Below, piece by piece: positions 9,362-25,292 of a stretch of DNA of 64,000 bases (its first letter is position 1; every line of letters begins with the position of its first letter). Source of the stretch: Firmicutes bacterium HGW-Firmicutes-7 (GTDB taxonomy: Bacteria; Bacillota; Clostridia; Lachnospirales; Vallitaleaceae); contig PGZO01000004.1 of NCBI GenBank assembly GCA_002841375.1, positions 124,001 to 188,000 on the forward strand, given 5' to 3'. Position numbers and translations under genes: made by a program. Below the pieces are notes generated by a model, which was not told where the DNA came from, searched no databases, and was given only the letters and a program-made list of their open reading frames with translations.

Positions 9362-9928
9362 ATGAGTAATGATTTATATGAAATATTAGAAAATAGTCCA
9401 ATTATAGCTGGAATAAAAGATGATAAAGGTTTAAATACAGTATTAACATCTGATTGTGAAATCGTTTTTATCCTATATGGCAACGTATTAAATATCAGTG
9501 ACATTGTGCAAAAACTAAAAGATCATGGGAAAATAACATTTATTGATGTTGATCTTATTGACGGCTTTTCAAATAAAGAAATCGTTATTCAATACTTAAA
9601 AGAACGAACTCAAGCGGATGGGATTTTAAGTGCAAAAGCATCTATGATTAAGGCGGCAAAAGTACATGGATTTTTAACTGTGCATAGATTCTTCTTGATA
9701 GACTCATTTTCATTTCATAATCTTGATAAGCAAATACAAATTTCACAACCAGATTGTATAGAAATACTACCAGGCGCTATGCCAAAGGTAATTTCATGGG
9801 TTATCGAGAAAGTTAAATTGCCAGTTATTGCTGGAGGATTAGTTTGTGAGAAAGACGATGTTGTTGCAGCACTGAAAGCAGGAGCTACGGCTATTTCTTC
9901 AACAAATATTGAGGTATGGTCTTTGTAA
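9362..9928 (+). CDS. ygcP: GlpP-family antiterminator, YgcP-like
   Basis: GlpP proteins are TIM-barrel-like RNA-acting regulators that, in Bacillus, bind glycerol-3-phosphate and let RNA polymerase read through a leader terminator. The 188 residues show the family signatures: SPIIAGIKDDKGL at the N-terminus, ITFIDVDLIDGFSNKE, DGILSAKASMIKAAK, TVHRFFLIDS, CIEILPGAMPKVI and PVIAGGLV near the C-terminus. No glycerol genes are nearby. Its neighbours are the relatives of E. coli ygcU, ygcW and ygcE, and the E. coli cluster contains the GlpP-like gene ygcP, so I read it as the cluster's own regulator. The ligand is unknown; the phosphorylated product of the YgcE-type kinase is an inference. It follows cobU by 89 bases with a TATAAT at 9314 and RBS TGGAGG. 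Confidence 0.85.
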   Translation: MSNDLYEILENSPIIAGIKDDKGLNTVLTSDCEIVFILYGNVLNISDIVQKLKDHGKITFIDVDLIDGFSNKEIVIQYLKERTQADGILSAKASMIKAAKVHGFLTVHRFFLIDSFSFHNLDKQIQISQPDCIEILPGAMPKVISWVIEKVKLPVIAGGLVCEKDDVVAALKAGATAISSTNIEVWSL

Positions 9929-10026: not shown

Positions 10027-11580
10027 TTATGCCTTTCTGTCAGACTGTGAATATGCATCAAACTTTTTAGGTTTACCCATAATATAGATCAAAGATATAA
10101 GGCTCAAAATGCCTAGGAACAGAGCGGGAAATCCTCCTAAATAGGAAAGCATTCTAATTCCATCTATTCCAAGGGTAGAGATGAAAATTAATGCAACAGC
10201 ACCAACAATAATGCCCCAAGTAACTTTGATATATAGCGGTGCTTCTTGCCCACCGTCAGTAATACCAGTTGTACAAATACTCGCCATCGCATTTGTAGTT
10301 GAATCTGTTGCAGTAATAAATGAAATAAGCACAGCAAGTAAATAAATTCCAATTAATATTCCCGAAAATGGAAGGCTACCTAGAACGGCATATCCAGCAG
10401 CAGCAGAGCCTTGTTCATTCATAATTGTAAGGATATCTACTTTTCCAGTCATCTGTAAATGAATTGCTGTGCCACCAAGAACTGCCATCCATACGGCACT
10501 AAAAGCACTAGGAACTAGAAAGTTCATTGTAATGATTTCTTTTACTGTGTAGCCATACGCGATTCTAGCCAGAAACACCGCGGATACAGGTGCCCAAGCC
10601 ATCCAATTAGACCAATAGAAAGTCGTCCAACCTGATGCCCAGCCATCATTTGATGCGGCACCTGTAAATAAGGCTTTGTTAAAAATCCCTGATAAAAATC
10701 CTCCAAAGGATTCAGTACCTAAGCTAAACATGTATACGGTAGGTCCAAGAAGAATAAGCGCTGCAATAATAATATAGTACAGATATACATTTAAATCTGA
10801 TAATATTCTGATTCCTTTGAATAATCCTGTACCAGAAGAGATAATAAAAGCAATGGTTCCACATATGGTGATGATAATCCATAAGCTTTTATTGTTATCA
10901 ATGCCAAATAAGGCATTAATTCCACCGCCCATATTCATAACAGCAGTACCAAAGGATGCTGAAATAGCTGCGGCTACTGCGAATAAAATTATTGCATCTA
11001 CGATAACATCAAACTTATGTTGATTGCGGTTACCGATAATAGGTGATATCTGAGAACCAACACTAAAGGGCCTTTTCATATTATAATAAGCAAATGCAAA
11101 AACAATTGTGGGCACTGCGTAAAATGCATAGGGTATAAATGTCCAGTGGAGGAATAAGGTTTCCATAGCAAACTTGGCTGCAGCGGGAGACATGGGTTCA
11201 ATTCCTAAAGACGTTGGGGGATACGCAAGATGCCAGATTGGCTCAGCCGTTCCCCAGAATAAAATTCCTGCAGCAATGGTTGTACAGAGTGTTACTGCAA
11301 ACCATGATGATTTTTTTAACAATGGTTTAGCATTTGGACCACCTATTCTTACGTTACCCAGTGGTGAAAAATATGTTGCTGTAATGACTAGTAAGCAAGC
11401 GACCCCTGCCAAACTAAACATCCAACCACATTGTAAAGTCATAAAATCCTTAGCTAAAGTTGTGATTTTAAGAAAAGATTCATAGTTAATAAAGTTTAGA
11501 ATAATTGCGATGATCAGCAATATAAATGCCGGAAAAAAGACAATGGGTTTAATTCGATTCACTCCAGATTTTGATTTCAT
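10027..11580 (-). CDS. BCCT-family transporter (first copy), altered substrate site
   Basis: This is a 517-residue polytopic carrier of the betaine/carnitine/choline (BCCT) family. The start is the ATG at 11580 behind GGGAGGAAATT. The family's TM8 tryptophan region is present as FYWSNWMAW (residues 321-329) followed by PVSAVFLARI, and TM4 has HWTFIPYAFY (145-154). Compared from memory with BetP, one Trp of the usual AWW pair is Asn (N325), the second TM4 Trp is Tyr (Y151), and the glycine-rich GxGxG stretch reads TIAAG (101-105). The substrate is therefore probably not ordinary glycine betaine. It is divergent from ygcU, shares its leader architecture, and is closely similar to the carrier at 19176-20747. 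Confidence 0.9.
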   Translation of the reverse strand: MKSKSGVNRIKPIVFFPAFILLIIAIILNFINYESFLKITTLAKDFMTLQCGWMFSLAGVACLLVITATYFSPLGNVRIGGPNAKPLLKKSSWFAVTLCTTIAAGILFWGTAEPIWHLAYPPTSLGIEPMSPAAAKFAMETLFLHWTFIPYAFYAVPTIVFAFAYYNMKRPFSVGSQISPIIGNRNQHKFDVIVDAIILFAVAAAISASFGTAVMNMGGGINALFGIDNNKSLWIIITICGTIAFIISSGTGLFKGIRILSDLNVYLYYIIIAALILLGPTVYMFSLGTESFGGFLSGIFNKALFTGAASNDGWASGWTTFYWSNWMAWAPVSAVFLARIAYGYTVKEIITMNFLVPSAFSAVWMAVLGGTAIHLQMTGKVDILTIMNEQGSAAAGYAVLGSLPFSGILIGIYLLAVLISFITATDSTTNAMASICTTGITDGGQEAPLYIKVTWGIIVGAVALIFISTLGIDGIRMLSYLGGFPALFLGILSLISLIYIMGKPKKFDAYSQSDRKA

Positions 11581-11701
11581 AATTTCCTCCCAAGTATGTA
11601 ATTTAAATAACAATAACAAGAAAATCGGCTGCGCCGAGTTAAAATCCTCGTTACACATCTGCCGCTTTTCTAATTACTTATGCAGAACTTTCCTAGTAAA
11701 C

Positions 11702-11747
11702 AAAAAAGAAGAAAAAAGCAGACTCCACTCGTGGAGTCGCTTTTCTC
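11702..11747 (-). terminator. Leader terminator (attenuator) of the first BCCT gene
   Basis: On the minus strand a GACTCCAC / GTGGAGTC stem with a two-base loop is extended by AGAAAAGC and GCTTTTTTCT arms, then followed by T tracts (TTTTTTCTTCTTTTTT on the transcript). It lies between the promoter at 11773-11801 and the start codon at 11580, so it acts before the gene. Its 5' arm begins GCAGAAGAGAAAAG, almost the same as in the divergent ygcU leader. Confidence 0.82.
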
Positions 11748-11772
11748 TTCTGCTCTGTTAGCAACTAGACTA

Positions 11773-11801
11773 AGTTTAGTGTACAAAAGGGATAAAGTCA
11801 A
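11773..11801 (-). promoter_or_regulatory. Promoter of the first BCCT gene
   Basis: On the minus strand TTGACT and TAAACT are separated by 17 bases. The predicted transcript start is about 25 bases upstream of the attenuator stem, leaving almost no room for another leader structure. Confidence 0.6.
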
Positions 11802-11960
11802 TGGGCAATAACCATAAATAATAAAACAAGAACTAGTAAAATCTACTAAGAGTGTGAAAAAATACAGTGTTAGTAAGAGGAAGGTTATATAGAAAATACA
11901 TATAATCATCTCATATATTATCTGAAACATATATAAAATTGCAGCATCGAAAAAAAACTA

Positions 11961-11989
11961 TTGACATTTAGTAAAACTCTTTATATAAT
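11961..11989 (+). promoter_or_regulatory. Promoter of the ygcU operon
   Basis: A consensus TTGACA and TATAAT are separated by exactly 17 bases. Transcription would begin near 11996, only about 12 bases before the leader terminator. Between this promoter and that of the divergent transporter (11802-11960) I see only AT-rich sequence without a clear operator. Confidence 0.85.
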
Positions 11990-12007
11990 GTACGTAATTA
12001 CTAGTGC

Positions 12008-12068
12008 AGAGAGAAAAGTAATTTCCTACGGGGATTTCCTGTAGAAATTTACTTTTCTCTCTTTTTTT
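12008..12068 (+). terminator. Leader terminator (attenuator) of the ygcU operon
   Basis: A 22-base stem with two mismatches (AGAGAGAAAAGTAA on the 5' side, TTACTTTTCTCTCT on the 3' side) closes an 11-base loop and is followed by seven Ts. It lies directly after the promoter and about 105 bases before the ygcU start, so most transcripts should stop here unless an antiterminator acts. The rest of the leader, 12069-12173, shows no further clear structure apart from the RBS AAGGAG. Confidence 0.87.
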
Positions 12069-12173: not shown

Positions 12174-13619
12174 ATGAAAATTACAAGAGAACAAATCGTA
12201 GAAAACCTAATGAATATTGTTGGAGAAGATAGTGTTATTACAGATGAACAAGTTTTAAAAACAAGCAGTCATGATCGTTTTAGAAAATATGAGGATATTA
12301 ATGGCGTATATACTCAACCTATTCCAGCTGCGGTAGTTAAGGTCAAAAGCACAGACGAGGTGGCGCAAGTATTAAAATTTATGAACGAAAACCAACTAAA
12401 TGTAGTTCCAAGAACTGGCGCTTCTGCTACGGAAGGTGGTCTAGAAACAGCATTAGAAAATTCAGTTGTAGTTGATGGATCTGATATGAATAAAATCATC
12501 AAAATTGATGTATATAACATGTTAGTCACAGCTCAATGTGGTGTTTCTTTAGAGGTACTTGAAGATAAATTGCGTGAGCAAGGATATACAACAGGTCATT
12601 CGCCACAATCAAAACCGCTTGCTCAAATGGGTGGCTTGGTAGCTACAAGAAGTATCGGTCAGTTTTCAACGCTATATGGAGGAATTGAAGACATGCTTGT
12701 TGGGGTTGAAGCTGTTTTTCCAAATGGGAATATAACTAGAATTAAGAATGTTCCAAGACGTGCGGCGGGGCCAGATATTAGACATGTCATCATAGGAAGT
12801 GAAGGTGCCCTATGTTTTATAACAGAAGTAACAGTCAAAATTTTTAAATATATGCCAGAAAACAATTTACTATATGGATATACACTAGATAATATGAAGA
12901 CAGGTTTTGAAATTCTTCGTGAAGTTATGATTAATGGCTATAAACCATCAGTTGCACGGTTATATGATCCAGAAGATGGAGATTATCATTTTTCTCATTT
13001 TGCAGAAGGTAAATGTGTACTTATATTTATGGCTGAGGGACCAAAAGCCATTGCTGATGCAACTGGAAAAGCCATTGAAGAAATAGTAGCAAAGTATAAA
13101 GAGTGTAAGAAAGTAGATGAAAAGTTTATTCAAGTATGGTTTGATAACTTGAATTGGGATCCAGCTAAGGTTGCTGAAGAGCGGGTTGAAATTGTGGAGA
13201 CACATAATCTTGGTTTTACAACAGAAGTATCAGGTAATTGGGATATTATTAACGAAATCTACGAAGTGTGTATCGAACGAATACGGAATGAAATACCTGA
13301 CATAACATTAATTGGGGGACATTCATCTCATAGCTATTTGAATGGAACAAATATGTACTTTGTCTATTATTATAATTTAGTAAATATTAAGCCAGAAGAA
13401 GAGATTGATAAATATCATAATCCAATTCAAGATATTATTGTTGAGGAAACGATTAGGGCTGGTGGCTCTATGTGCCATCATCATGGTGTAGGGAAACATA
13501 GAACGCATTTTATACAAGAGGAGTATCAATCATCGTATTATATCCTTGAAACTTTAAAAAAATCCTTTGACCCGAATGGAATTATGAATGCTGGAACCAT
13601 CATTCCATTAAACAAATAA
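12174..13619 (+). CDS. ygcU: FAD-binding oxidoreductase, YgcU ortholog
   Basis: This is a 481-residue member of the type 4 FAD-binding oxidoreductase/transferase family (FAD_binding_4 plus C-terminal cap). The PRTGASATEGGLE and KPLAQMGGLVATRSIGQFS segments are the FAD-binding parts. The C-terminal GGSMCHHHGVGKHR (His435-437) is the motif I know from alkyl-dihydroxyacetonephosphate synthase, and FDPNGIMNAGTI ends the fold. It matches my recollection of E. coli YgcU along its whole length, including VPRRAAGPDIRH and GGHSSHSYLNGTNMYFVY. Function is unknown in E. coli. Here it heads an operon with its own ETF pair, which suggests a dehydrogenase that passes electrons to ETF. Confidence 0.9.
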   Translation: MKITREQIVENLMNIVGEDSVITDEQVLKTSSHDRFRKYEDINGVYTQPIPAAVVKVKSTDEVAQVLKFMNENQLNVVPRTGASATEGGLETALENSVVVDGSDMNKIIKIDVYNMLVTAQCGVSLEVLEDKLREQGYTTGHSPQSKPLAQMGGLVATRSIGQFSTLYGGIEDMLVGVEAVFPNGNITRIKNVPRRAAGPDIRHVIIGSEGALCFITEVTVKIFKYMPENNLLYGYTLDNMKTGFEILREVMINGYKPSVARLYDPEDGDYHFSHFAEGKCVLIFMAEGPKAIADATGKAIEEIVAKYKECKKVDEKFIQVWFDNLNWDPAKVAEERVEIVETHNLGFTTEVSGNWDIINEIYEVCIERIRNEIPDITLIGGHSSHSYLNGTNMYFVYYYNLVNIKPEEEIDKYHNPIQDIIVEETIRAGGSMCHHHGVGKHRTHFIQEEYQSSYYILETLKKSFDPNGIMNAGTIIPLNK

Positions 13620-13620
13620 T

Positions 13621-14433
13621 ATGAATATACTCGTATGTTTTAAAAATGTTCCTGATTTAGATGCATTATCAGTAAATGATTGGTTGATCGAAGATCATTT
13701 CCAGGTAGATACAAGTTATGTCAGAACAATGTTAAATCCCTATGATGAAAGCGCGCTTGAACTAACACTAAAATTGGGGGACGCTGAAAAGAATGATGAT
13801 TTTAAATTAACAGCTTTAACAGTTGGAACAAGTCATTTAGATAAAGTATTAAAAACCTTATATGCATTGAAATATGACTTAGGCGTAAGACTAGATTGTA
13901 AATCGGATATTAGATTTAACCCTTGTTTTGTTTCACGAATGATTTGCAATTATGTTAAGAATATAAAAAATCATCAGGTCATTATTTTAGGAAGTCAAAG
14001 TAACGTAGGTGACAATGCAAAAACACCATTATTAGTAGCCGAAGGGCTAGGAATTCCTTGCATTACTTCAGTTATTGGAATCAAGTTAGCAGAACAAAAA
14101 GATTGTCTAAGTATTACGTCTAAAATCGATGATTTGATCATTGAACAAATCGTTAAAGCACCGTTTGTTTTAGCGGTGGGAGATGTCCCAACTTCGTACA
14201 TTAGAGTGCCAACGCTTAAGGATAGAATTCAATACAAGGAAAAAGAGATTAAGGTTTTTACCCTTGAGGATTTAGAAATAAAAGAAAATGATGTTGAAGA
14301 AGAAAACGATACGCAGCTAATTGAATTATCTTATGAAAAGAATGGGAGAAATTGTGTATTTATTCAAGGACATCATTCTTCGGAAAAAGCAAATGTGTTA
14401 TACAAAGAATACTTAATGGAGAGGATAAAATAA
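13621..14433 (+). CDS. ygcR: Electron transfer flavoprotein beta-like subunit, YgcR-like
   Basis: This 270-residue protein has the ETF beta opening MNILVCFKNVPD, followed by MLNPYDESALE and a nucleotide-binding-like ILGSQSNVGDNAKTPLLVAE stretch. It resembles E. coli YgcR as I remember it (the DIRFNPCFVSRMI and TPLLVAEGLGIPC regions). It begins one base after the ygcU stop with no good Shine-Dalgarno sequence, so it is probably translated by coupling. The next gene is the matching alpha-like subunit. The family transfers electrons as an FAD/AMP heterodimer; whether this one binds FAD or AMP at each site cannot be told here. Confidence 0.85.
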   Translation: MNILVCFKNVPDLDALSVNDWLIEDHFQVDTSYVRTMLNPYDESALELTLKLGDAEKNDDFKLTALTVGTSHLDKVLKTLYALKYDLGVRLDCKSDIRFNPCFVSRMICNYVKNIKNHQVIILGSQSNVGDNAKTPLLVAEGLGIPCITSVIGIKLAEQKDCLSITSKIDDLIIEQIVKAPFVLAVGDVPTSYIRVPTLKDRIQYKEKEIKVFTLEDLEIKENDVEEENDTQLIELSYEKNGRNCVFIQGHHSSEKANVLYKEYLMERIK

Positions 14434-15419
14434 TGAAAACTGTAATGATACTTAATGGGTCGGTAAATGCCATATTAAAACAAGCAGAAGAATTAAATAA
14501 TTATTCTATTAAAAATTTTTCGAAAAATTCTTTAATTGAAGCATGGATTTTAACTGACCAGGATGTTAATTTCAATACGATTTCATTTTCTCCTCATATT
14601 AATTGCATTAAATTAGTAAAAGTTAGGACAAAACATGTTGCTGAGGAATATATTAAGGCGATTATCATGTTATATGAAAAATGCAAGCCCGAAATCATGA
14701 TATTTGGTAGTGAAGCGTTTGTTTCGGGTTTGGCTGTTAGAGTAGCTTGCCGTTTAAAGGGGAGTTCTTGTGTAGGTGTAAAAAGGAACCAGTATTTAGA
14801 AAAACATTTTATTGTTGAAAAGATGGTTTATTCAAATAATCTAACTGCTAAATTCATAATGAAAAATATGCCATATTGTATTTCTATTGCAAAAGGATTT
14901 AACCATATGACTGAGCAGTCTTCTATAACGGATGATAGTGAAGCGTATCAGAAACTACCTAATGTTGAAACAGTAACCTTTAAGACTGAGGTAGACACTG
15001 AATGGATTCGATCATTTACATTTGAATTAATAAATACTGAGGAGGGACTAAATACTTCCAAGGTAGTTGTTGCAATAGGAAAAGGTATTGGTAGTAAAGA
15101 AAAAGTAGTTTTGTACGAAAAGTTGGCGGCCCTTATGGAAGGTAAACTAGGGGCTAGTCGTCCAGTAGTGATGAATGCGTGGATGCCTATGGAACGCTTA
15201 ATTGGTGCATCGGGTTTAATTATTGCACCAGAACTATGTGTTGCCATAGGTGTGTCAGGAGCTGCTGCATTTACAGTTGGTATAGAAAAGAGTAAATTTA
15301 TCATTGCAATTAACAAGGATCAAGAAGCACCTATTTTTAAAATAGCAAATGTAGCAATTTGCGCTGATTGTGAAGAGGTTGCACAGGCGCTTATTAATAA
15401 ATTAAATGGAAGAATTTAG
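14433..15419 (+). CDS. ygcQ: Electron transfer flavoprotein alpha-like subunit, YgcQ-like
   Basis: I place the start at the ATG at 14433, which shares a base with the ygcR stop (TAATG), giving 328 residues. The N-terminal domain is divergent. The C-terminal FAD domain is typical: VVVAIGKGIGSKEKV, LGASRPVVMNAWMP, LIIAPELCVAIGVSGAAAFTVG and FIIAINKDQEAPIF. There is no ferredoxin domain, in contrast to the second alpha subunit at 17757. With ygcR it forms the electron acceptor of the YgcU-type flavoprotein. The function of the E. coli counterpart is not known. Confidence 0.87.
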   Translation: MKTVMILNGSVNAILKQAEELNNYSIKNFSKNSLIEAWILTDQDVNFNTISFSPHINCIKLVKVRTKHVAEEYIKAIIMLYEKCKPEIMIFGSEAFVSGLAVRVACRLKGSSCVGVKRNQYLEKHFIVEKMVYSNNLTAKFIMKNMPYCISIAKGFNHMTEQSSITDDSEAYQKLPNVETVTFKTEVDTEWIRSFTFELINTEEGLNTSKVVVAIGKGIGSKEKVVLYEKLAALMEGKLGASRPVVMNAWMPMERLIGASGLIIAPELCVAIGVSGAAAFTVGIEKSKFIIAINKDQEAPIFKIANVAICADCEEVAQALINKLNGRI

Positions 15420-15429
15420 AGGTGAAACA

Positions 15430-16908
15430 ATGGTATCAGAACTAATCAAACCATTTGATACAAGATATGAGGAATATTTAAGAGATGAATCCAAAATGGA
15501 TGGAAAGGCTAGTGGGATTTCATTTCCTCGGACAAAAGAGGAGGTTGTAACAATTGTCAACCAGATGATTAACACTTCAACTTCAATCACCGTCCAAGGG
15601 GGTAAAACTGGTATTTGTGGTGGTGCAGTACCGTCAGAAGGACATATTTTGAATTTATCGTATCTAAATAAAGTGATCGACTCATTTGAAACAGAAAATG
15701 GACGTTTCGTTAAAGTGGAAGCTGGATTGATGTTATCAGAATTACATAAATATCTTAATAAAGTGGATAAAACATATTTTTGGCCTCCAGACCCAACGGA
15801 GGATTCAGCTACAATTGGTGGTATTTTAGCTACAAACGCACAAGGCATATGCAGATATTTTTATGGAGATACAAAACAATATGTTGAGGAAATAAAATTA
15901 ATTGACGGTTATGGAAAAGAAAGAATTATACGTAGAGGTGAACGTATAGTAAATGAGCATAAATGTTTATTAGAAAGTGGAGGAACACTTGTCGTGGATA
16001 CAGCGCTTTTGAAACTGCCTCAAGATATTGATTTGATTGATATTTATTTAGGAAGTGAAGGGATGTATGGCATTATTGTTGAGGCTACGCTTAAATTGAT
16101 TGCAAGGCCTAAAGAAGTTTGGGGTATAAGCTTTTTCTTTGAAGAGCAAGAAAATATTTTTGGTTTTGTAGAGGCATTCATGCATACTTCCTATAATGAA
16201 GATGAAGCAGTAGTGGCTGCAGTGGAATATCTTGATAAAAGCACGCTAAAACACATTCATGTATTAAAGAAAGATGTTACCAAATTAAGAGAACTTCCGG
16301 ATGTAGATGAGAAATTTGTTGGTATGGTATATATAGAATTACATGGCAACCAGGAAGAACATATTGAAATAATAGCAGAAAAGATTATGGAATTAGCGAG
16401 CCATTTTCAAGAGGATGATACTTCAACCTGGGCCTTATCAGGGTTTGAAGAAATAGAAAAACTTAGAGCTTTTAGACATGCAGCACCTGAATCTATGAAT
16501 AGGGCCCTTGATCAAGTTAAATTACTTGATTCTCGTATCATAAAGCTTGCAACAGATATTGCGATGGAAAATATGACGTTTAAAGAACTGGTTACGAAGT
16601 ATCAACAGACGGCGTTGGAAAAAGGTATAAATATTGCTATTCATGGTCACGTAGCAGGGAATCAGTTGCACGTTGATTTACTGCCTGAAAATTATGAAGA
16701 ATATATAACGGGAAAAAAGCTTGTTAAAGATTGGGTGATTTGTGCTGTTAAAAGAGGCGGACAGGCTTTTAGCGAGTATGGTGTTGGAAAAATTAAAAAA
16801 GCGTTATATCAGTTATCATTAAGTGAGGAAGAACTAGGAAATATGCGTCATATCAAAAAAGTCTTTGATACGAATGGTATTTTGAATCCTGGAAATATGT
16901 TGGATTAA
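15430..16908 (+). CDS. FAD-linked oxidase, GlcD/D-lactate dehydrogenase type
   Basis: This 492-residue flavoprotein oxidises 2-hydroxy acids in known relatives (D-lactate, glycolate, D-2-hydroxyglutarate). I chose the ATG at 15430 behind GAGGTGAAACA; an in-frame ATG at 15406 lies inside the previous gene. VQGGKTGICGGAVPS and PPDPTEDSATIGGILATNAQG bind FAD. The usual metal and substrate motifs are changed: HGHVAGNQLHVD replaces the common HGHxGDGNLH, and SEYGVGKIKK has Tyr where relatives have the His of the EHGIG motif. With the next two genes it matches the LctD-LctB-LctC arrangement of electron-bifurcating lactate dehydrogenase. The altered residues argue for a different substrate. Confidence 0.86.
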   Translation: MVSELIKPFDTRYEEYLRDESKMDGKASGISFPRTKEEVVTIVNQMINTSTSITVQGGKTGICGGAVPSEGHILNLSYLNKVIDSFETENGRFVKVEAGLMLSELHKYLNKVDKTYFWPPDPTEDSATIGGILATNAQGICRYFYGDTKQYVEEIKLIDGYGKERIIRRGERIVNEHKCLLESGGTLVVDTALLKLPQDIDLIDIYLGSEGMYGIIVEATLKLIARPKEVWGISFFFEEQENIFGFVEAFMHTSYNEDEAVVAAVEYLDKSTLKHIHVLKKDVTKLRELPDVDEKFVGMVYIELHGNQEEHIEIIAEKIMELASHFQEDDTSTWALSGFEEIEKLRAFRHAAPESMNRALDQVKLLDSRIIKLATDIAMENMTFKELVTKYQQTALEKGINIAIHGHVAGNQLHVDLLPENYEEYITGKKLVKDWVICAVKRGGQAFSEYGVGKIKKALYQLSLSEEELGNMRHIKKVFDTNGILNPGNMLD

Positions 16909-16930
16909 TAAGGATAAAAGAGGTGCTACA

Positions 16931-17722
16931 TTGAAGATTGCAATATGTATCAAACAAGTTCCAGGAAGTAATGAATTAACAATGGATCAGGAGAAAGGCA
17001 TTTTGCAAAGAGAAGATGGGCGTGTAAAGATGAACCCATATGATCTTGTTGCGATTGAAACCGCTTTGCAAATAAAAGAAAAATATAAAGAGGTTGTTAT
17101 TACTTCGTTCTCAATGGGACCTAAGCGTGCTAGGGAGGTTATATTATCAAGTTATGCCATGGGCGTAGATCAAGGTGTACTGATTACAGATCCGAAATTT
17201 ATAGGATCAGATGTATATGCAACCGCATTGACCTTATCAAAAGGAATCTCATTAAATGAGGAATTTGATATCGTTATTTGCGGAAGGCAGACAACTGACG
17301 GTGATACAGGTCAAGTTGGACCTGCAATAGCAGAACATTTGGGAATTCCTCATATTTATGGCGTAATAGCGATTGATAAAATAGAAGAAAAACATATTTT
17401 TCTGTCACAGCAAATAGAAAATAAAAAAATATCACTTAGAGTAAAGATGCCTTGTGTACTTGTAATTTCGAAAGAAGCATATATTCCACGGCTTCCATCT
17501 TTGAAATTGAAACTTGAGGCGAAAAAGAAGAAAATAAAAATCATGTCCTTTGAAGATTTAAATGACTCGGATATAAGAAAATTTGGGCTAGAAGGTTCGC
17601 CAACCCAAGTGGAAAAAATATACTTTCCTAATAAATCTAAAAAAGAAACACTACTATCTGGAAACGCTAATGTTATTGTAGATGCAATCATAGAACGATT
17701 AAAAGGTGAGAAACTTATATAG
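16931..17722 (+). CDS. Electron transfer flavoprotein beta subunit, bifurcating-type (LctB-like)
   Basis: This 263-residue protein starts at a TTG behind AGAGGTGCTACA. It has the classical ETF beta sequence: MKIAICIKQVPGS, KMNPYDLVAIETAL, VICGRQTTDGDTGQVGPAIAEHLGIP and a C-terminal PRLPSLKLKLEAKKK. The TDGDTGQVGP loop binds the second nucleotide, which is FAD in bifurcating ETFs. It is clearly a different subfamily from the YgcR-like protein at 13621, so the operon encodes two distinct ETFs. Confidence 0.9.
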   Translation: MKIAICIKQVPGSNELTMDQEKGILQREDGRVKMNPYDLVAIETALQIKEKYKEVVITSFSMGPKRAREVILSSYAMGVDQGVLITDPKFIGSDVYATALTLSKGISLNEEFDIVICGRQTTDGDTGQVGPAIAEHLGIPHIYGVIAIDKIEEKHIFLSQQIENKKISLRVKMPCVLVISKEAYIPRLPSLKLKLEAKKKKIKIMSFEDLNDSDIRKFGLEGSPTQVEKIYFPNKSKKETLLSGNANVIVDAIIERLKGEKLI

Positions 17723-17756
17723 AGTTGTGCGAATTATAAATAAACGAGGTGATTAC

Positions 17757-18962
17757 TTGTCAGAACTTCAGATTAACGATGAAAAATGTGTTTTATGTAG
17801 GGCGTGCATTAGCGCTTGTCCATTTGGTGCACTTGAAGTAGTTGATAAAAAGTTAGTTGTGGAGGATAACTGTAGCTTATGTGGCGTATGTCTAAACACT
17901 TGCCAGTTTAATGCACTTTGTATTGAAAAGCAAGAGAATGGGTTACTAGATAAAAATAAATGGTCAGATATTTTAGTATTTGTTGAACACAATGAAGGTA
18001 AAATTCAGCCCGTTACATATGAATTAATAGGAAAAGCGCTTAAGTTAATAGAAGGAACTTCATATAAGGTTTACTGCTTGATTGTGGGATATAAAATAAC
18101 AGAACTTGCGAAAGAATTATCCTATTATAATGTTGAGAAAAATTTTATTTATGACCATAAAGCATTTAAGAATTATAGAGAGGATATATTTTGTAACGTT
18201 TTTCAAGACTGCATAAATGTATTAATGCCTGCTATTGTTTTAATAGGTGGGACAGATGTTGGTAAATCAATCGCACCTGCTGTTGCAACAAGTTTTCACT
18301 CGGGGCTCACTGCAGATTGTACAGAACTAATCTTAAATGAAAAATTAGAGCTCGTACAAATAAGACCTGCTTTTGGGGGAAATGTAATGGCTCAAATTGT
18401 AACGCCAAATCATAGGCCTCAATTTGCAACAGTAAGACCCAGTATTATGGAAGAAGCTAATAGAATTAAATCACCAAGAAATAATATTGTGAATTGCAAG
18501 TTAGATGAAAAAAAGCTGGTTTCACAAATAGAGGTACTTAAAGAAAAGCAGATGGAAACGAAAGAAGGTATTCAAGACGCAAAGATTTTGATTGTTGCAG
18601 GACAAGGATTCAAGCGTAAAGAAGATTTGTGGATGGTCGAGGAGCTTGCAATGCTTCTTAATGGTCAAGTAGCTTCGTCAAGAGCCTTAGTTGAGAAAGG
18701 GTGGATGCCTTATGAGAGACAGATTGGGCTATCAGGAAAAACTGTAAAGCCTGAAGCCATAATAACTTGTGGTGTGTCAGGATCAGTACAATTTATGACG
18801 GGAATGAAAACGAGTAAGACGATTATTGCAATAAATATTGATAGTGATTCTCCGATTTTCTCTATTGCCCACCAATCGATTGCGGGAGATATTTATGAAA
18901 TTCTTCCAAAGTTAATTCATCAATTAAAAGAAATAGATAAGCTTGCTAATAACAAGAATTAG
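17757..18962 (+). CDS. Electron transfer flavoprotein alpha subunit with 2[4Fe-4S] ferredoxin domain (LctC-like)
   Basis: I place the start at the TTG at 17757, eight bases after GAGGTG, giving 401 residues; an in-frame GTG at 17706 inside the upstream gene is less likely. Cys11, 14, 17 and 21 and Cys39, 42, 45 and 49 form two ferredoxin-type CxxCxxCxxxC motifs. The rest is a full ETF alpha: VLIGGTDVGKSIAPAVA, LVQIRPAFGGNVMAQI, ASSRALVEKGWMPYERQIG and IIAINIDSDSPIF. Ferredoxin-fused EtfA is the form seen in LctC of the bifurcating lactate dehydrogenase and CarE of caffeyl-CoA reductase. The gene closes the second oxidase/ETF module. Confidence 0.9.
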   Translation: MSELQINDEKCVLCRACISACPFGALEVVDKKLVVEDNCSLCGVCLNTCQFNALCIEKQENGLLDKNKWSDILVFVEHNEGKIQPVTYELIGKALKLIEGTSYKVYCLIVGYKITELAKELSYYNVEKNFIYDHKAFKNYREDIFCNVFQDCINVLMPAIVLIGGTDVGKSIAPAVATSFHSGLTADCTELILNEKLELVQIRPAFGGNVMAQIVTPNHRPQFATVRPSIMEEANRIKSPRNNIVNCKLDEKKLVSQIEVLKEKQMETKEGIQDAKILIVAGQGFKRKEDLWMVEELAMLLNGQVASSRALVEKGWMPYERQIGLSGKTVKPEAIITCGVSGSVQFMTGMKTSKTIIAINIDSDSPIFSIAHQSIAGDIYEILPKLIHQLKEIDKLANNKN

Positions 18963-19110
18963 TTTTTTAAGCCCATTCACGTACAAATAGTTTAGCGTTA
19001 AAACAAAATGATTTTGCCTCTCGTTATGTTTTATACAAAGATTATAGAAAGCATCTTAAAGATTGTAAAAATTGTAAGGATGTATGTAGTGGGCTTTTAA
19101 ATAAATTAAC

Positions 19111-19140
19111 ATATAGTCTTCTTACAAAATAAGACTATAT
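19111..19140. promoter_or_regulatory. Perfect inverted repeat upstream of the second BCCT gene
   Basis: Arms ATATAGTCTT and AAGACTATAT (10 bases each) flank a 10-base spacer. It lies 36 bases before the transporter start. There is no T tract after it, so it is more likely an operator or an mRNA-processing or stabilising stem than a terminator. The rest of the 213-base gap shows no convincing promoter. Confidence 0.5.
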
Positions 19141-19175
19141 TGGCTACTAACTAACTATATTTGGGAGGTTATAAA

Positions 19176-20747
19176 ATGAGTACAAAAACAAAAAGCAATA
19201 TTAGGCCATTTGTATTTTTTCCTGCATTTATTTTATTGCTCGTAACAATCATTTTGAACTTTGTAAATCCTGAGGCCTTTTTGACAGTTACTACAGCTGC
19301 AAAAGACTTTATGACAGTTCAATGTGGATGGATGTTTAGTTTAGCGGGGGTTGCATGCTTAATTGTAGTCATCTTAGCTTATTTTTCTCCATTAGGTGAG
19401 ATAAGGGTAGGTGGCGCTAATGCAAAACCATTACTAAAAAAAGGATCATGGTTTGCAATTACCTTAACGACAACTATTGCAGCTGGAATTATGTTTTGGG
19501 GAACGGCTGAACCACTTTGGCATCTTGCTTATCCCCCGATAGGTATTGAACCAATGTCTCCAGCAGCAGCTAAGTTCGCGATGGAAACCTTATTCCTTCA
19601 CTGGACATTTGTTCCTTATGCATTCTATACGGTTCCGACAATTGTATTTGCTTTTGCATACTATAATATGAAAAAGCCTTTCAGTGTAGGTTCACAGATT
19701 TCTCCTGTTCTTGGAAATCGTAATCAAAAGAAAATTGATATTTGGGTAGATGCAATTATCCTATTTGCTATAGGTACTGGAATAGCATCATCCTTTGCAA
19801 CTGCAGTGATGAATATGGGTGGTGGGATCAATGCATTAACAGGCATCAATAGCGATAAGACTTTATATATTATTATTACAATTGCGGCAACAGCATTGTT
19901 TACCTTTGCTTCCGGCTCTGGTTTATTTAAAGGAATCAAATTCCTAGCGAAGTTTAATGTATATTTATATTATATCATTATAGCAGCGTTAGTAATTTTA
20001 GGCCCTACAGTCTATATGTTTAGCTTGGGTACAGAATCCTTTGGTGGTTTCTTATCAGGTATATTTAGTAAGGCCTTGTTTACGGGTGCGGCTGCGTCAG
20101 ATTCATGGGCGTCTGGTTGGACAACCTTTTATTGGACAAACTGGATGGCATGGGCACCAGTTACGGCAGTATTTTTAGCGAGAATTTCATATGGATATAA
20201 AATTAAAGAAATTATTACGATGAACTTTTTAATTCCATCAGCTTTTGGTGCTGTTTGGATGACAATTGTAGGTGGAACTGCAATTAATTTCCAAATGACT
20301 GGAAGAGTTGACCTGATAGCAATAATGAATGAACAAGGCTCTGGAGCAGCGGGATATGCTATCCTTAATGAGTTGCCACTAGCTGGGGTATTAATGGTGA
20401 TTTATCTTATTGCAGTAATTGTATCGTTTGCGACTGCGACAGATTCAACAACCAATGCGATGGCAAGTATTTGTACAACTGGAATTACAGAAGCAGATCA
20501 AGAAGCACCTTTATATCTCAAGGTTTTATGGGGAGCTATTATTGGCTTAATCGCTGTTGTATTCTTAGCAACCTTTGGAGTAGATGGGATCAAGATGTTG
20601 TCCTACCTCGGCGGCTTCCCTGCACTTATTTTAGGTGTTTTAAGTCTGATTTCACTAGTATTCATTATGAATAAGCCAAAGAAATATGATATTGTTGACA
20701 ATGGGGAGATTGTTTCCCAAGAGGAAAGTGAAAGTACTGTTCTTTAA
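19176..20747 (+). CDS. BCCT-family transporter (second copy), altered substrate site
   Basis: This 523-residue carrier starts at the ATG behind GGGAGGTTATAAA. It is closely similar to the transporter at 10027-11580 throughout, with the same variant motifs: TTIAAGIMFWGTAEP, HWTFVPYAFY and FYWTNWMAWAPVTAVFLARI. The two copies presumably carry the same or closely related compounds, perhaps as an exchanger pair or with different affinities; this is inference. In the E. coli ygc cluster the equivalent positions hold MFS carriers (YgcS, YqcE). Downstream come ygcW and ygcE on the same strand. Confidence 0.92.
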   Translation: MSTKTKSNIRPFVFFPAFILLLVTIILNFVNPEAFLTVTTAAKDFMTVQCGWMFSLAGVACLIVVILAYFSPLGEIRVGGANAKPLLKKGSWFAITLTTTIAAGIMFWGTAEPLWHLAYPPIGIEPMSPAAAKFAMETLFLHWTFVPYAFYTVPTIVFAFAYYNMKKPFSVGSQISPVLGNRNQKKIDIWVDAIILFAIGTGIASSFATAVMNMGGGINALTGINSDKTLYIIITIAATALFTFASGSGLFKGIKFLAKFNVYLYYIIIAALVILGPTVYMFSLGTESFGGFLSGIFSKALFTGAAASDSWASGWTTFYWTNWMAWAPVTAVFLARISYGYKIKEIITMNFLIPSAFGAVWMTIVGGTAINFQMTGRVDLIAIMNEQGSGAAGYAILNELPLAGVLMVIYLIAVIVSFATATDSTTNAMASICTTGITEADQEAPLYLKVLWGAIIGLIAVVFLATFGVDGIKMLSYLGGFPALILGVLSLISLVFIMNKPKKYDIVDNGEIVSQEESESTVL

Positions 20748-20785
20748 AAATATAAAAAATATAAAAATAAAAGGAGATATTAACA

Positions 20786-21562
20786 ATGAATATAGTAGAT
20801 TTTTCAATGGATTTCTTTTCTTTAAAAGGGTTAAATGCTATTGTAACTGGAGGTAATACCGGATTAGGACAAGCATTTGCATTAGCTTTAGCAAAAGGAG
20901 GTGCAAATCTGTTTATTCCAAGTATTATGGAAGATGATGGCACAACAAAAACACTAATAGAAAATGAAGGCGTTAAAATGGCGTTTATGAAAATTGATAT
21001 AACTGAAGAAGGTGCAGCAAAAAAGGTTATTGATGGTTGCGTTGATGCTTTTGGTTCTGTTGATATTTTAGTAAATAGTGCAGGTATTTGTAAGATTGCA
21101 TCGGTGCAAGAATTTGGAAGAGCAGAATGGGATCCAATGATCAGCATCAATCTTACTGCAGCCTTTGAATTAAGCTACCAGGCAGCACAAAAAATGATTC
21201 CACAAAGAAGTGGAAAAATAATTAACATATGTTCTATGTTTTCATTTTTAGGAGGTCAATGGTCACCAGCCTATGCTGCAACCAAGCATGGTTTAGCAGG
21301 GTTTACAAAAGCATATTGTGATGAGCTGGCTCAATATAATATCCAAGTAAATGGTATTGCACCAGGGTATTATGCAACTGAAATTACAACAAAAACAAGA
21401 AGTAATCCTGAAACAAATAAAAAGGTACTTGACCATATTCCTGCAAACCGCTGGGGAGAAACGCAAGATTTAATGGGTACAACCGTTTTCTTAGCAAGTA
21501 GAGCTTCTGATTATGTAAATGGTCATATATTAGCTGTAGATGGCGGCTATTTAGTAAGGTAA
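20786..21562 (+). CDS. ygcW: Short-chain dehydrogenase/reductase, YgcW ortholog
   Basis: This 258-residue classical SDR has VTGGNTGLGQAFA as the NAD(P)-binding glycine motif, LVNSAGIC in place of NNAG, the catalytic Ser in ICSMFSFLGG, and YAATKHGLAGFTKAYCDEL with the YxxxK pair. VNGIAPGYYATEITT and the ASDYVNGHILAVDGGYLVR end are as in KduD and its relative YgcW. It agrees with remembered E. coli YgcW nearly throughout, including the N-terminal FSMDFFSLKG. KduD oxidises or reduces a sugar-acid ketone, so the substrate may be a small polyol acid; that is inference. RBS AAAAGGAGATA. Confidence 0.92.
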   Translation: MNIVDFSMDFFSLKGLNAIVTGGNTGLGQAFALALAKGGANLFIPSIMEDDGTTKTLIENEGVKMAFMKIDITEEGAAKKVIDGCVDAFGSVDILVNSAGICKIASVQEFGRAEWDPMISINLTAAFELSYQAAQKMIPQRSGKIINICSMFSFLGGQWSPAYAATKHGLAGFTKAYCDELAQYNIQVNGIAPGYYATEITTKTRSNPETNKKVLDHIPANRWGETQDLMGTTVFLASRASDYVNGHILAVDGGYLVR

Positions 21563-21577
21563 TTTACGTTTTACTTT

Positions 21578-21613
21578 CTATATGCGTTTATTCAATGGAA
21601 TAAATGCATATAG
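21578..21613. other. Strong hairpin between ygcW and ygcE
   Basis: Two 16-base arms (CTATATGCGTTTATTC and GAATAAATGCATATAG) pair fully as RNA, with one G-U, around a four-base loop. No T tract follows, so this may be a processing or stability element that separates the dehydrogenase from the kinase message. Confidence 0.55.
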
Positions 21614-21695
21614 ATTAACTTACTGATAAATAGAGTCATCACTTAAAATTTACGCTGAAAGGCATAACTATAAAAGAAAGGTATTGGTGGTTGTA

Positions 21696-23129
21696 ATGAG
21701 TAAAAAATATATTATAGGTGTTGATGGTGGGTCTCAGAGTTCAAAGGTTGTAATATTTGATCTTGAAGGGAATATTGTTTGTGAAGGTAAGGAAGATTTG
21801 CAACCTATGAGCTTACCTGAGCCAGGAATTGTAGAACATCCTAATGATGATCTTTGGGATTCTATCGTAATAGCCAGTAAAAAAGCCATGGAACGCTTTT
21901 CAGGAAATGTGGAAGATATTATTGGATTAGGCTTATGTACCATACGTTTTTGTAGAGCCTTATTAAAGGAAGATGGTACTTTAGCATCACCTGTTATGAG
22001 CTGGATGGATACAAGAGTATCTAAACCTTATGAGCACTTGAATCCTTCGGTAAAGTATGTTACGACTACTTCGGGTTATATTGCCCATAGATTTACAGGT
22101 AATTTTAACGATACTGCAGCAAATTATCAAGGTCAATGGCCTATAGATACCGATTCATGGCAATGGAGTGAAGATCCAGCAGTACAAAAGGATTTTAATA
22201 TTCCTCTAGAGATGTTATTTAACTTGCAAATGCCAGGAACGGTTTTAGGTGAGGTTACAGAAGCAGCATGTAAAGCAACCGGTATACCTATGGGTATTCC
22301 TGTAGTTGCAACAGCGAATGATAAGGCAGTTGAAGCTTTAGGTGCTGGATCATTATCTCAAAACACTGCGCTTGTTTCTTTAGGAACTTATATTGCAGCG
22401 ATGGTACACGGACATGAAAATCCAAAAAATACAACAAATTTTTGGACAAACTTTGCTTCTATTCCTGATAATTATTTGTATGAGAGCTATGGAATTCGAA
22501 GAGGTATGTGGACAGTTAGCTGGATTAAAAATCTTTTGGGAGATGAGATTGCTCTAAAAGCTGAAGCTTTAGGTATTCCAGCTGAGGAATATTTGAACAG
22601 AGAGGCAGAAAAGGTTCCAGCAGGTAGTAATGGGTTAATGACTGTTTTAGATTGGCTTGCTCCAGCACATTTACCCTTTAAAAAAGGCTTAATGATTGGC
22701 TTTGATGGCCGTCATACTGGAGCGCATATATATAGGTCTATATTAGAGGCAATTGCTTTAACGATGAAAAATCATGCAGATGCAATGTGCGCTGAATTAG
22801 ATATAGAGCTAGAAAATATTATTATTTCAGGAGGAGGCTCTAATAGTGCATTGTTTATGCAAATATTCGCTGATGTGTTTGGCGTTTCAGCTTCAAGAAA
22901 TGAGGTCAATGGTTCTGCGAGTTTAGGTTCAGCAATCTGTGCCGCAGTTGCAGTAGGAGCGTACGATAATTATGAAATTGCTATAGAAAAAATGGTACGA
23001 ATTAGAGACACCTTCAGCCCAATCAAAGAGAACACAGACTTATATAAAAGAATGAATAATGAAGTTTTTAAAGATATTACTGTCTATACAGATGAAGTCT
23101 TAAAAAAGTCATATCCAATTTTCGGTTAA
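21696..23129 (+). CDS. ygcE: FGGY-family carbohydrate kinase, YgcE ortholog
   Basis: This is a 477-residue kinase of the xylulokinase/glycerol kinase superfamily. The ATG at 21696 follows GGTGG; an upstream TTG is less likely. YIIGVDGGSQSSKVVIFDLEGN is the phosphate-binding opening, VSLGTYIAAMVHG and IIISGGGSNSALFMQIFADVF complete the ATP site. It matches remembered E. coli YgcE, including LQPM, SWMDTRVSKPYEH, YQGQWPID and YGIRRGMWTVSW. YgcE has no assigned substrate to my knowledge. As the last metabolic gene of the operon it probably phosphorylates the imported compound or its oxidised or reduced form, and the product may be the ligand of the GlpP-type regulator. Confidence 0.9.
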   Translation: MSKKYIIGVDGGSQSSKVVIFDLEGNIVCEGKEDLQPMSLPEPGIVEHPNDDLWDSIVIASKKAMERFSGNVEDIIGLGLCTIRFCRALLKEDGTLASPVMSWMDTRVSKPYEHLNPSVKYVTTTSGYIAHRFTGNFNDTAANYQGQWPIDTDSWQWSEDPAVQKDFNIPLEMLFNLQMPGTVLGEVTEAACKATGIPMGIPVVATANDKAVEALGAGSLSQNTALVSLGTYIAAMVHGHENPKNTTNFWTNFASIPDNYLYESYGIRRGMWTVSWIKNLLGDEIALKAEALGIPAEEYLNREAEKVPAGSNGLMTVLDWLAPAHLPFKKGLMIGFDGRHTGAHIYRSILEAIALTMKNHADAMCAELDIELENIIISGGGSNSALFMQIFADVFGVSASRNEVNGSASLGSAICAAVAVGAYDNYEIAIEKMVRIRDTFSPIKENTDLYKRMNNEVFKDITVYTDEVLKKSYPIFG

Positions 23130-23189
23130 TTAAAAATAAAGAATTCTGCAACTTCTTTATTCAATTTGCACGAATTGGGGAGGATTAAA

Positions 23190-25292
23190 ATGAAAACATC
23201 TATTCGATTTAGATTAATCAGTTATTTTATCTTGGTTATATTAATGACATCAATACCTATAGGTGTTATTGCGTATACGAGCACCTATAACTCTATTAAA
23301 ACAAGTATGTATGACTCTGCAAATAAAGAAATGATTCAGGTTGACAATGGAATTTCTTACATATTTAAGAATATTACTGAAAACAATAAATATCTTGCAT
23401 CAAATAGCCAAATTAAAGAAATTGATGAAAGCATCGTAGCACTTTTTAACCTTGATCATATAAAGATACCAAAATTGTTTTCAAAAGAATTACCTGGATT
23501 GCACGGGAAGATTTATGATGAATTGGAGAGATATGCTGATTCACACCCTGATTCGGCTTATGTTTATTTAGGCACAAAATGGGGTGGCTATATTCAGTGG
23601 CCAGATGGACTAGAGGTCAACGATTATGACCCAAGAACAAGACAGTGGTACGAGCAAGCTGCGAATCATTCAGATGAAGTGATAATTTCTGATCCATATA
23701 TGGCAAGTGATGCTTCCCAGTCTATTATCGTAAGCACTACAAGTAGCATTAAAAACGCAAAAGGAGAAGTTGTGGGCGTATTAGGGCTTGATGTTAGCTT
23801 AACGACACTATCACAGATAATTAAAGAAATTAAAATTGGTAATACCGGATATGTATTCTTATATACAAAAGATGGAACGATTATAGCACATCATAATCCA
23901 GATGTTGTATTTAAGAATATCAACGATCTATCAAATAATGGTGTAAACGATGAAGAAAACAATCAATTAATTCAATATGTTATAAAGGATTATGCGAAAC
24001 TCCTTAGTGATGAAAACGCATCTTTTGAAACAATCGTGGATGGCGTTCCCTGTTTAGTATCCGTAATCACTTCCCCCTCAACTGGATGGAAGATGGCTTC
24101 AATTGTAACCAAAAATGAATTATTAGAAAAATCTAATCAAGTAGGATTGGTGATTATATTGATTACTATAGCTATTCTGATTTTAGCTTTAGTAATCGTT
24201 TGGTTTGTAACAAAGGTGATCACAACACCATTATTAAAAATAAAACAATTTGCTCAGAGATTGGAAAACTATGATTTTAGTAATCCTATATCAATCTCTA
24301 GAAAAGATGAATTTGGGCAAACAGGTGATGCCTTAAACATAGCCCAGAATAATGTGAGACAATTAATAACTTCAATCATAAGTGATTCATCTGAAATAAG
24401 TGCTTCAAGTCAAGAGCTAGCTGCTTCTACTGAAGAGGTAACCTCACAATTTGAGACCATCAATTCATCAACAAAAGAAATAAGTTCTGGCGTTACACAA
24501 ACAAGTGAAATGGCAAAGGATATTTCAAATTCTGCTCAAAAAGTGAATCTAAGTTGTAATGTCCTTTCAGAAAAAGCAATTGATGGTACATCTGAATCGG
24601 TAAAGATTCAAGATAGAGCTTTAGATATCCAAAGGAAAAGTAAGGCAGCGTTAGAAGAAACTAAAAAGGTGTACTTAGATCGAGAAAATAAAATTATTAA
24701 ATCAATAGAAGCAGGGAAAGTTGTTAACGAAATTAAGGTTATGGCAGATACAATTGCAAGCATTGCAGCCCAAACAAATCTATTAGCTCTTAATGCTGCA
24801 ATTGAGGCGGCAAGGGCAGGAGAACAAGGAAAGGGTTTTGCTGTTGTAGCTGATGAAGTAAAAACACTTGCGGAACAAGCCTCACAAGCGGTGGATAAGG
24901 TTAAGTATACAATAGTAAAAGTACAAGATGTATTTAAGAGTTTGTCAGATAATAGTAATGAGTTATTGAAGTTTATGAATGAAAACGTTACGTTGCAATT
25001 TGAAGCATTTAGTGAAGTGGGACAACAATATCAAATAGATGCAGAATTTGTTAATACCATGTCTGAAGAACTAGCTAGGATGGCGAATGAAATCACTAAA
25101 ACAATCAATGAAGTTAGTAATTCAGCTCAAAGTATGGCGAATATGTCACAGAATTCATCAGAGCGTACGAATGAAATCCAAGTGAGCGTTGATGAATCCA
25201 CTCAGGCAATGGAACAAGTAGCAAAAACGGCACAATTTCAGGCGGAACTGGCCCAAGCCCTAAGTGCACAAATTCAAAAATTCAAACTATAG
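23190..25292 (+). CDS. Methyl-accepting chemotaxis protein with dCache sensor domain
   Basis: This 700-residue chemoreceptor starts at the ATG behind GGGGAGGATTAAA. TM1 is near residues 10-30, an extracellular double Cache domain spans about 40-305, TM2 is near 315-340, HAMP follows, and the signalling tip is [34 protein letters not shown]. The Cache pocket has [12 protein letters not shown] and GLDVS, which resemble the amino-acid/amine recognition motif of dCache_1 domains. DPYMASDA lacks the acidic residue usually found two positions after that Tyr. It follows ygcE by 60 bases and is probably co-transcribed, so it may detect the compound that the operon consumes. Confidence 0.9.

Follow-up and report, generated by a model that had tools for sequence, protein, structure and literature searches.

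The closest described parallels to the leaders considered here are the antitermination systems of GlpP and LicT. In Bacillus subtilis, GlpP bound to glycerol-3-phosphate (G3P) has been reported to bind the antiterminator (PMC7430163), and each of its three target promoters comes with a GlpP site and a 5'-UTR terminator (PMC9604022). GlpP has also been reported to stabilise glpD mRNA (PMC7430163; Glatz 1996, as cited in PMC3997798). The LicT hairpin is recognised via two bulges (PMC7430163). In the ygc locus of Escherichia coli, the ygcW and yqcE promoters are both catalogued as constitutive RpoD promoters (PMC3946193), and the literature searched contained no YgcP target and no report of antitermination for the ygcW/yqcE leaders.

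The 64,000-nucleotide stretch of Firmicutes bacterium HGW-Firmicutes-7 DNA analysed here (hereafter the window) carries two divergent leaders that resemble the Bacillus glpD, glpFK, and glpT terminators in having a GlpP-family gene in the genome and a terminator between promoter and gene, and that resemble Bacillus-type glpD leaders in having a 5'-end hairpin that shares a strand with the terminator and a loop of the GAGA-N-GAGAA kind. They differ from the Bacillus GlpP leaders in their non-glp targets, their presence as two divergent copies, the separate clade of the associated protein, their longer loop (AGAG-N-GAGAAAA), and their conserved GTTAC/GTAAC-type stem. As with the RAT of LicT/BglG systems, a small and putatively protein-stabilised hairpin overlaps the 5' arm of the terminator; the protein family, however, is another one, the window hairpin has a single large purine-rich loop, and no PRD/CAT-RBD antiterminator gene was found among the cluster genes examined. 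The likeness to the E. coli ygc locus is closer, in that both ygcW/yqcE leaders are the same element and the window has counterparts of ygcW, ygcU, and ygcE, although the transporters YgcS and YqcE stand in place of its BCCT transporters. The present analysis documents mutually exclusive, covarying folds that are positioned at the transcript start, are conserved, and are tied to a GlpP-family gene and, among its products, to a single clade; judged from sequence, both leaders are very probably terminators of the conditional kind, which the YgcP/GlpP-family protein of the window would open (Table 1).

Divergent Leaders of the Window

Table 1. Positions of the leader elements, their target genes, and the proposed regulator gene in the window.
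Feature	Positions	Strand	Evidence or remark
GlpP/YgcP-family antiterminator gene (G3P_antiterm), proposed trans-acting partner	9362-9928	+	PF04309, E 1.5e-63
BCCT transporter gene, target of the minus leader	10027-11580	-	PF02028, E 7e-119
Minus intrinsic terminator, 45-nt hairpin	11751-11707	-	followed by T tract; R1 53.6 bits
Minus antiterminator hairpin, AGTTGC...loop with AGAG and AGAGAAAA...GCGACT	11734-11766	-	from about +1
Minus-transcript promoter, TTGACT-17-TAAACT	11801-11773	-	9/12 consensus match, which is within chance for such promoter scans
Plus-transcript promoter, TTGACA-17-TATAAT	11961-11989	+	12/12 consensus match, sigma-A-type
Plus antiterminator hairpin, AATTACT...loop AGTGCAGAGAGAAA...AGTAATT	11996-12024	+	from about +1
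Plus intrinsic terminator, 55-nt hairpin	12008-12062	+	T tract to 12068; R1 62.4 bits
Co-directional gene run behind the plus leader	12174-25292	+	domain searches; last gene by sequence alone

The original prediction held that a promoter is followed on each strand by an intrinsic terminator ahead of the first gene, and the coordinates, folds, and z-scores all agree with this. Promoter and terminator are separated by about 20 nt on each strand, and both leaders fold at -29.5 kcal/mol, with a z-score of -5.94 for the plus leader and -5.10 for the minus leader (0/200 shuffles as good in each case). The terminator 5' arms, GCAGAGAGAAAAG (+) and GCAGAAGAGAAAAG (-), had also been read correctly, and the T tracts are present.

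Missing from that anatomy was a competing hairpin into which either transcript can fold at its 5' end. Each leader carries, where the transcript starts, a 5' arm whose pairing partner is a segment within the 5' arm of the terminator (AATTAC with GTAATT in the plus leader, AGTTGC with GCGACT in the minus leader), the latter stem being a compensatory version relative to GTTAC/GTAAC. Because a GTAACT-type strand is common to both folds, the antiterminator hairpin and the terminator are mutually exclusive. The 5' hairpin begins 6 nt past the -10 element in both leaders, at approximately the first transcribed base. Its stability alone is only about -2.3 kcal/mol (plus) or -4.0 kcal/mol (minus), so protein or kinetic help would be needed for it to prevail.

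The 5' half of the element consists of an arm (AGTTAC or AATTAC), Y, AGAG, three to five variable bases, and GAGAAAA, and the 3' half of an arm (GTAACT or GTAATT), a variable hairpin top, CTTTTCTC, and the T tract; the GAGAAAA-GTAACT block forms the 5' side of the terminator, and its GTAACT portion also pairs with the 5' arm. Searched for letter by letter, the GCAGAnnnnAAAAG arm turned up in the minus leader only, since the plus leader is spaced differently; the conserved block was therefore redefined from related loci. Comparison of the leaders of ygc-type loci, which had been proposed as a check, found the arm kept across three phyla as AGAG-N-GAGAAAAG. The shared arm is accordingly conserved, but its extent had been underestimated: the real block, stem-AGAG-N3-5-GAGAAAA-stem, reaches further 5', and the GCAGA motif earlier taken as the shared arm is merely part of the loop in this genome. 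Recognition had likewise been assigned to the shared base of the terminator. The shared block is indeed there; the base as such is probably not what is recognised, and the more probable target is the alternative hairpin, with the shared purine block in its loop and a 3' stem strand that is part of the terminator.

A recent duplication as the origin of the two leaders was considered and rejected, since they are unlike in their stems and in the inner parts of their terminators. The minus strand has, at 11625-11637 between the attenuator and the BCCT gene, another small hairpin that resembles a terminator (TCGGCGCAGCCGA, then TTTTC). On the basis of the sequence and the N-terminus of the second BCCT copy, a BCCT start at 11580 (GGAGG, then ATGAAATCAAAATC) is more likely than the opening of the reading frame at 11658; the 26 extra codons (11580-11658) fall within the leader.

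The run of genes behind the plus leader begins with a ygcU-like FAD oxidase, ETF beta/alpha, and a second FAD oxidase, continues with a second ETF beta/alpha with a ferredoxin domain and a second BCCT transporter, and ends with a ygcW-like SDR, a ygcE-like FGGY kinase, and a methyl-accepting-chemotaxis-like protein. Two FAD-oxidase/ETF-beta/ETF-alpha sets thus occupy 12174-20747, and the locus also holds two BCCT transporters that are 75% identical, the whole amounting to a nested duplication. A classical glp regulon does not describe this locus, whose targets are BCCT, FAD oxidase, ETF, SDR, and FGGY kinase genes and not glycerol/G3P genes.

Covariation and Distribution of the Element

An alignment of 50 leaders shows 92% pairing and 35 double-change cells in the terminator stem (8.1 in shuffled alignments), and 84% pairing and 28 such cells in the antiterminator stem (8.6 shuffled). 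As the first leader set had been picked partly by the antiterminator stem, the covariance model R1 was built with the terminator pairs only, the antiterminator pairs being left out. A search with R1 placed the element at 119 sites in Firmicutes, Enterobacterales, and Actinobacteria; across these places, among which are most of the 50 leaders used for training, pairing in the antiterminator stem, which R1 does not model, reaches 93%, with 67 double-change cells against 20.7 shuffled, and sliding the stem by one or two columns lowers pairing to 16-47%. Actinobacterial sites outside the training set carry the stems GTTGC/GCGAC, GTCGC/GCGAC, and GTCAC/GTGAC, the latter two at sites that score weakly (E 0.1-0.2). 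Within the 4.08-Mb genome of the window, R1 matches nothing but the two window leaders, one of which it also hits on the reverse strand. No Rfam family reaches its gathering score for the leaders; the best, SpF43, attains 24.2 bits against a cut-off of 70, and this identity was set aside as chance. The RNA family appears to be absent from Rfam and undescribed in the sources searched.

In E. coli K-12, both leaders lie between ygcW and yqcE (R1 76.3 and 63.6 bits), with ygcP a few kilobases from the pair, and a 600-bp stretch that contains both recurs in 5019 of 5426 complete genomes of the species. Some Firmicutes clusters (L062, L068, L005, and L007) hold three or four copies of the element, and an extra copy in L024 (13715-13781, minus strand) is distant from the known cluster genes of its contig. 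An E. coli-type ygcW leader pair on a contig labelled Planctomycetota (L053) looks like contamination.

A related arrangement is seen at loci of other GlpP-family genes, among them leaders immediately ahead of GlpD-, GlpA-, and glycerol-3-phosphate-oxidase-type genes: the 5' side of the terminator is preceded by a GAGA-N-GAGAA loop, and the short stems that close it are unrelated to those of the ygc type (e.g., TGGTC/GACCA, AAGGT/ACCTT, and TTTAAATGT/ACATTTAAA). Because a combined ygc/glp MAFFT alignment was poor, owing to the unrelated stems, arm permutation was used and no pair count was made. The stem match of glp-type leaders with their own arms was 8.05, against 5.96 with arms swapped among leaders (0/2000), in a set picked by eye beside GlpP loci that serves as supporting and not as independent evidence. 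When permuted alone, six actinobacterial and L105 leaders had 65 of 2000 shuffles as good, a weak result because these arms are near-copies.

Association With the Probable GlpP-Family Regulator

The nearby GlpP-family gene of the original prediction is borne out by its PF04309 match. Its product is 55% identical to E. coli YgcP and 38% identical to the other GlpP of the genome, and has solved relatives in 3kts and 1vkf. The second GlpP-family gene lies on another contig (L001 590-1183/L132), with no R1-type leader there. A relative genome, G035 (L089/L147), has two tandem GlpP-family genes and a third elsewhere.

Whether the arm follows the GlpP-family gene was examined in loci and in whole genomes. 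Eighty loci with a relative of the plus-leader FAD oxidase were sampled from Firmicutes, Enterobacterales, Actinobacteria, and a few other groups, and most have the same neighbours, namely a GlpP-family gene, SDR, FGGY kinase, FAD oxidase, and ETF. The leader is present in 60/63 loci with a GlpP-family gene nearby versus 4/17 without (Fisher 3.6e-9), and, among 149 genomes from the family of E. coli, R1 sites occur in 19/21 with a full PF04309 gene versus 0/128 others, counts to be read with the caveat that co-inherited clusters can co-occur without function and that related genomes are not independent. Three of the four leader loci that have no GlpP-family gene in the sampled stretch reach a contig end near the cluster; for the fourth (L015), the gene is on another contig, as indicated by the identical R1 scores of G405. 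All 19 site-bearing enterobacterial genomes have two main sites, near each other and divergent as in the window, and the two genomes with a PF04309 gene and no element encode a lower-scoring, more distant GlpP-family protein. G288 and G333 (with second copies in G267 and G320) have a distant GlpP-family protein of about 150-170 bits without an R1 site of its own. In an order-level sample of 197 genomes, sites were found in 2/2 with PF04309 versus 1/195 without, that one being marginal (E 0.009). One Serratia genome has the GlpP-family gene and the leaders on separate contigs, and the link is therefore not one of adjacency alone.

In a tree of 64 GlpP-family proteins, those linked to leaders form essentially one clade (4 label changes versus about 21.5 when shuffled), with the window protein inside it and the second GlpP of the genome (L001) outside. 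YgcP/GlpP as the likely regulator is thus supported both by leader conservation and by co-distribution with the GlpP-family gene.

Proposed Mechanism and Alternatives

The proposed mechanism is a variant of GlpP antitermination. The default state would be termination because the 5' hairpin is weak alone: the nascent leader would fold into the long terminator, and RNA polymerase would halt before the first gene. The 5' hairpin would form first, ahead of the terminator, and the ligand-loaded YgcP/GlpP-family protein, whose gene is 1.8-2 kb away, would bind it by gripping the AGAG...GAGAAAA loop. The bound hairpin would keep the purine tract and the GTAAY strand from the 3' arm of the terminator, permitting read-through from the minus leader into the BCCT gene and from the plus leader into the FAD-oxidase/ETF/SDR/kinase operon. 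Direct binding, the ligand, and read-through are the parts of this scheme that we infer. The ligand is probably G3P or a different polyol or sugar in phosphorylated form, of which the FGGY kinase of the cluster may be the source; that it would be phosphorylated is suggested by the glycine-rich C-terminal barrel end, which is kept in the aligned family, together with the cluster-encoded FGGY kinase. The glycine-rich C-terminal end of TIM barrels commonly binds phosphate.

Control by a different antiterminator (BglG/LicT, ANTAR, HutP, or PyrR), or by direct action of a small molecule on the RNA, is very unlikely. Attenuation in general has such a two-state layout (PMC7430163) and a purine-rich loop is found in several other systems as well, but the element is present in 0/128 enterobacterial genomes lacking a GlpP-family gene, follows one GlpP-family clade, and matches no Rfam family at cut-off, and its hairpin is on the small and simple side for an RNA that binds a ligand. 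An effect of the GlpP-family protein through the hairpin mainly on mRNA stability or translation, instead of termination, is less likely still. Such a role would have a precedent in the reported stabilisation of glpD mRNA by GlpP (PMC7430163; Glatz 1996, as cited in PMC3997798); the hairpin strand, however, is common to a strong terminator in all classes seen, and termination is therefore the likely conserved output.

Least credible is the reading of the inverted repeats as DNA operators for a transcription factor or as plain terminators of incoming transcripts. The repeats are palindromic and lie between divergent promoters, as operators might, yet they have a strand polarity, with the purine block 5' and the T tract 3', and begin at about +1 of each transcript, and the additional 5' arm, which lies outside the terminator, shows covariation; nor is there a convergent gene in need of termination at this place. 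Conditional termination relieved by the YgcP/GlpP-family protein remains the preferred reading.

Implications and Outlook

The chances are about even that these leaders belong to a widespread RNA family with one code, in which any stem closing GAGA-N-GAGAA takes its 3' strand from the terminator and is recognised by GlpP-superfamily proteins in Firmicutes, Enterobacterales, and Actinobacteria alike, with the YgcP branch responding to a phosphorylated metabolite other than G3P and serving a BCCT/FAD-oxidase/ETF/FGGY-kinase pathway. The element as a probable YgcP target appears undescribed in the sources searched, and the precise, covariation-backed model obtained here for the probable recognition site of the GlpP family has no such record in the RNA family database searched. 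The orphan regulator YgcP of E. coli and its relatives thereby gain two concrete candidate RNA targets, in a species that offers every tool for testing them. The inducer of the switch, once found, would provide a direct route to the substrate of the uncharacterised ygc pathway.
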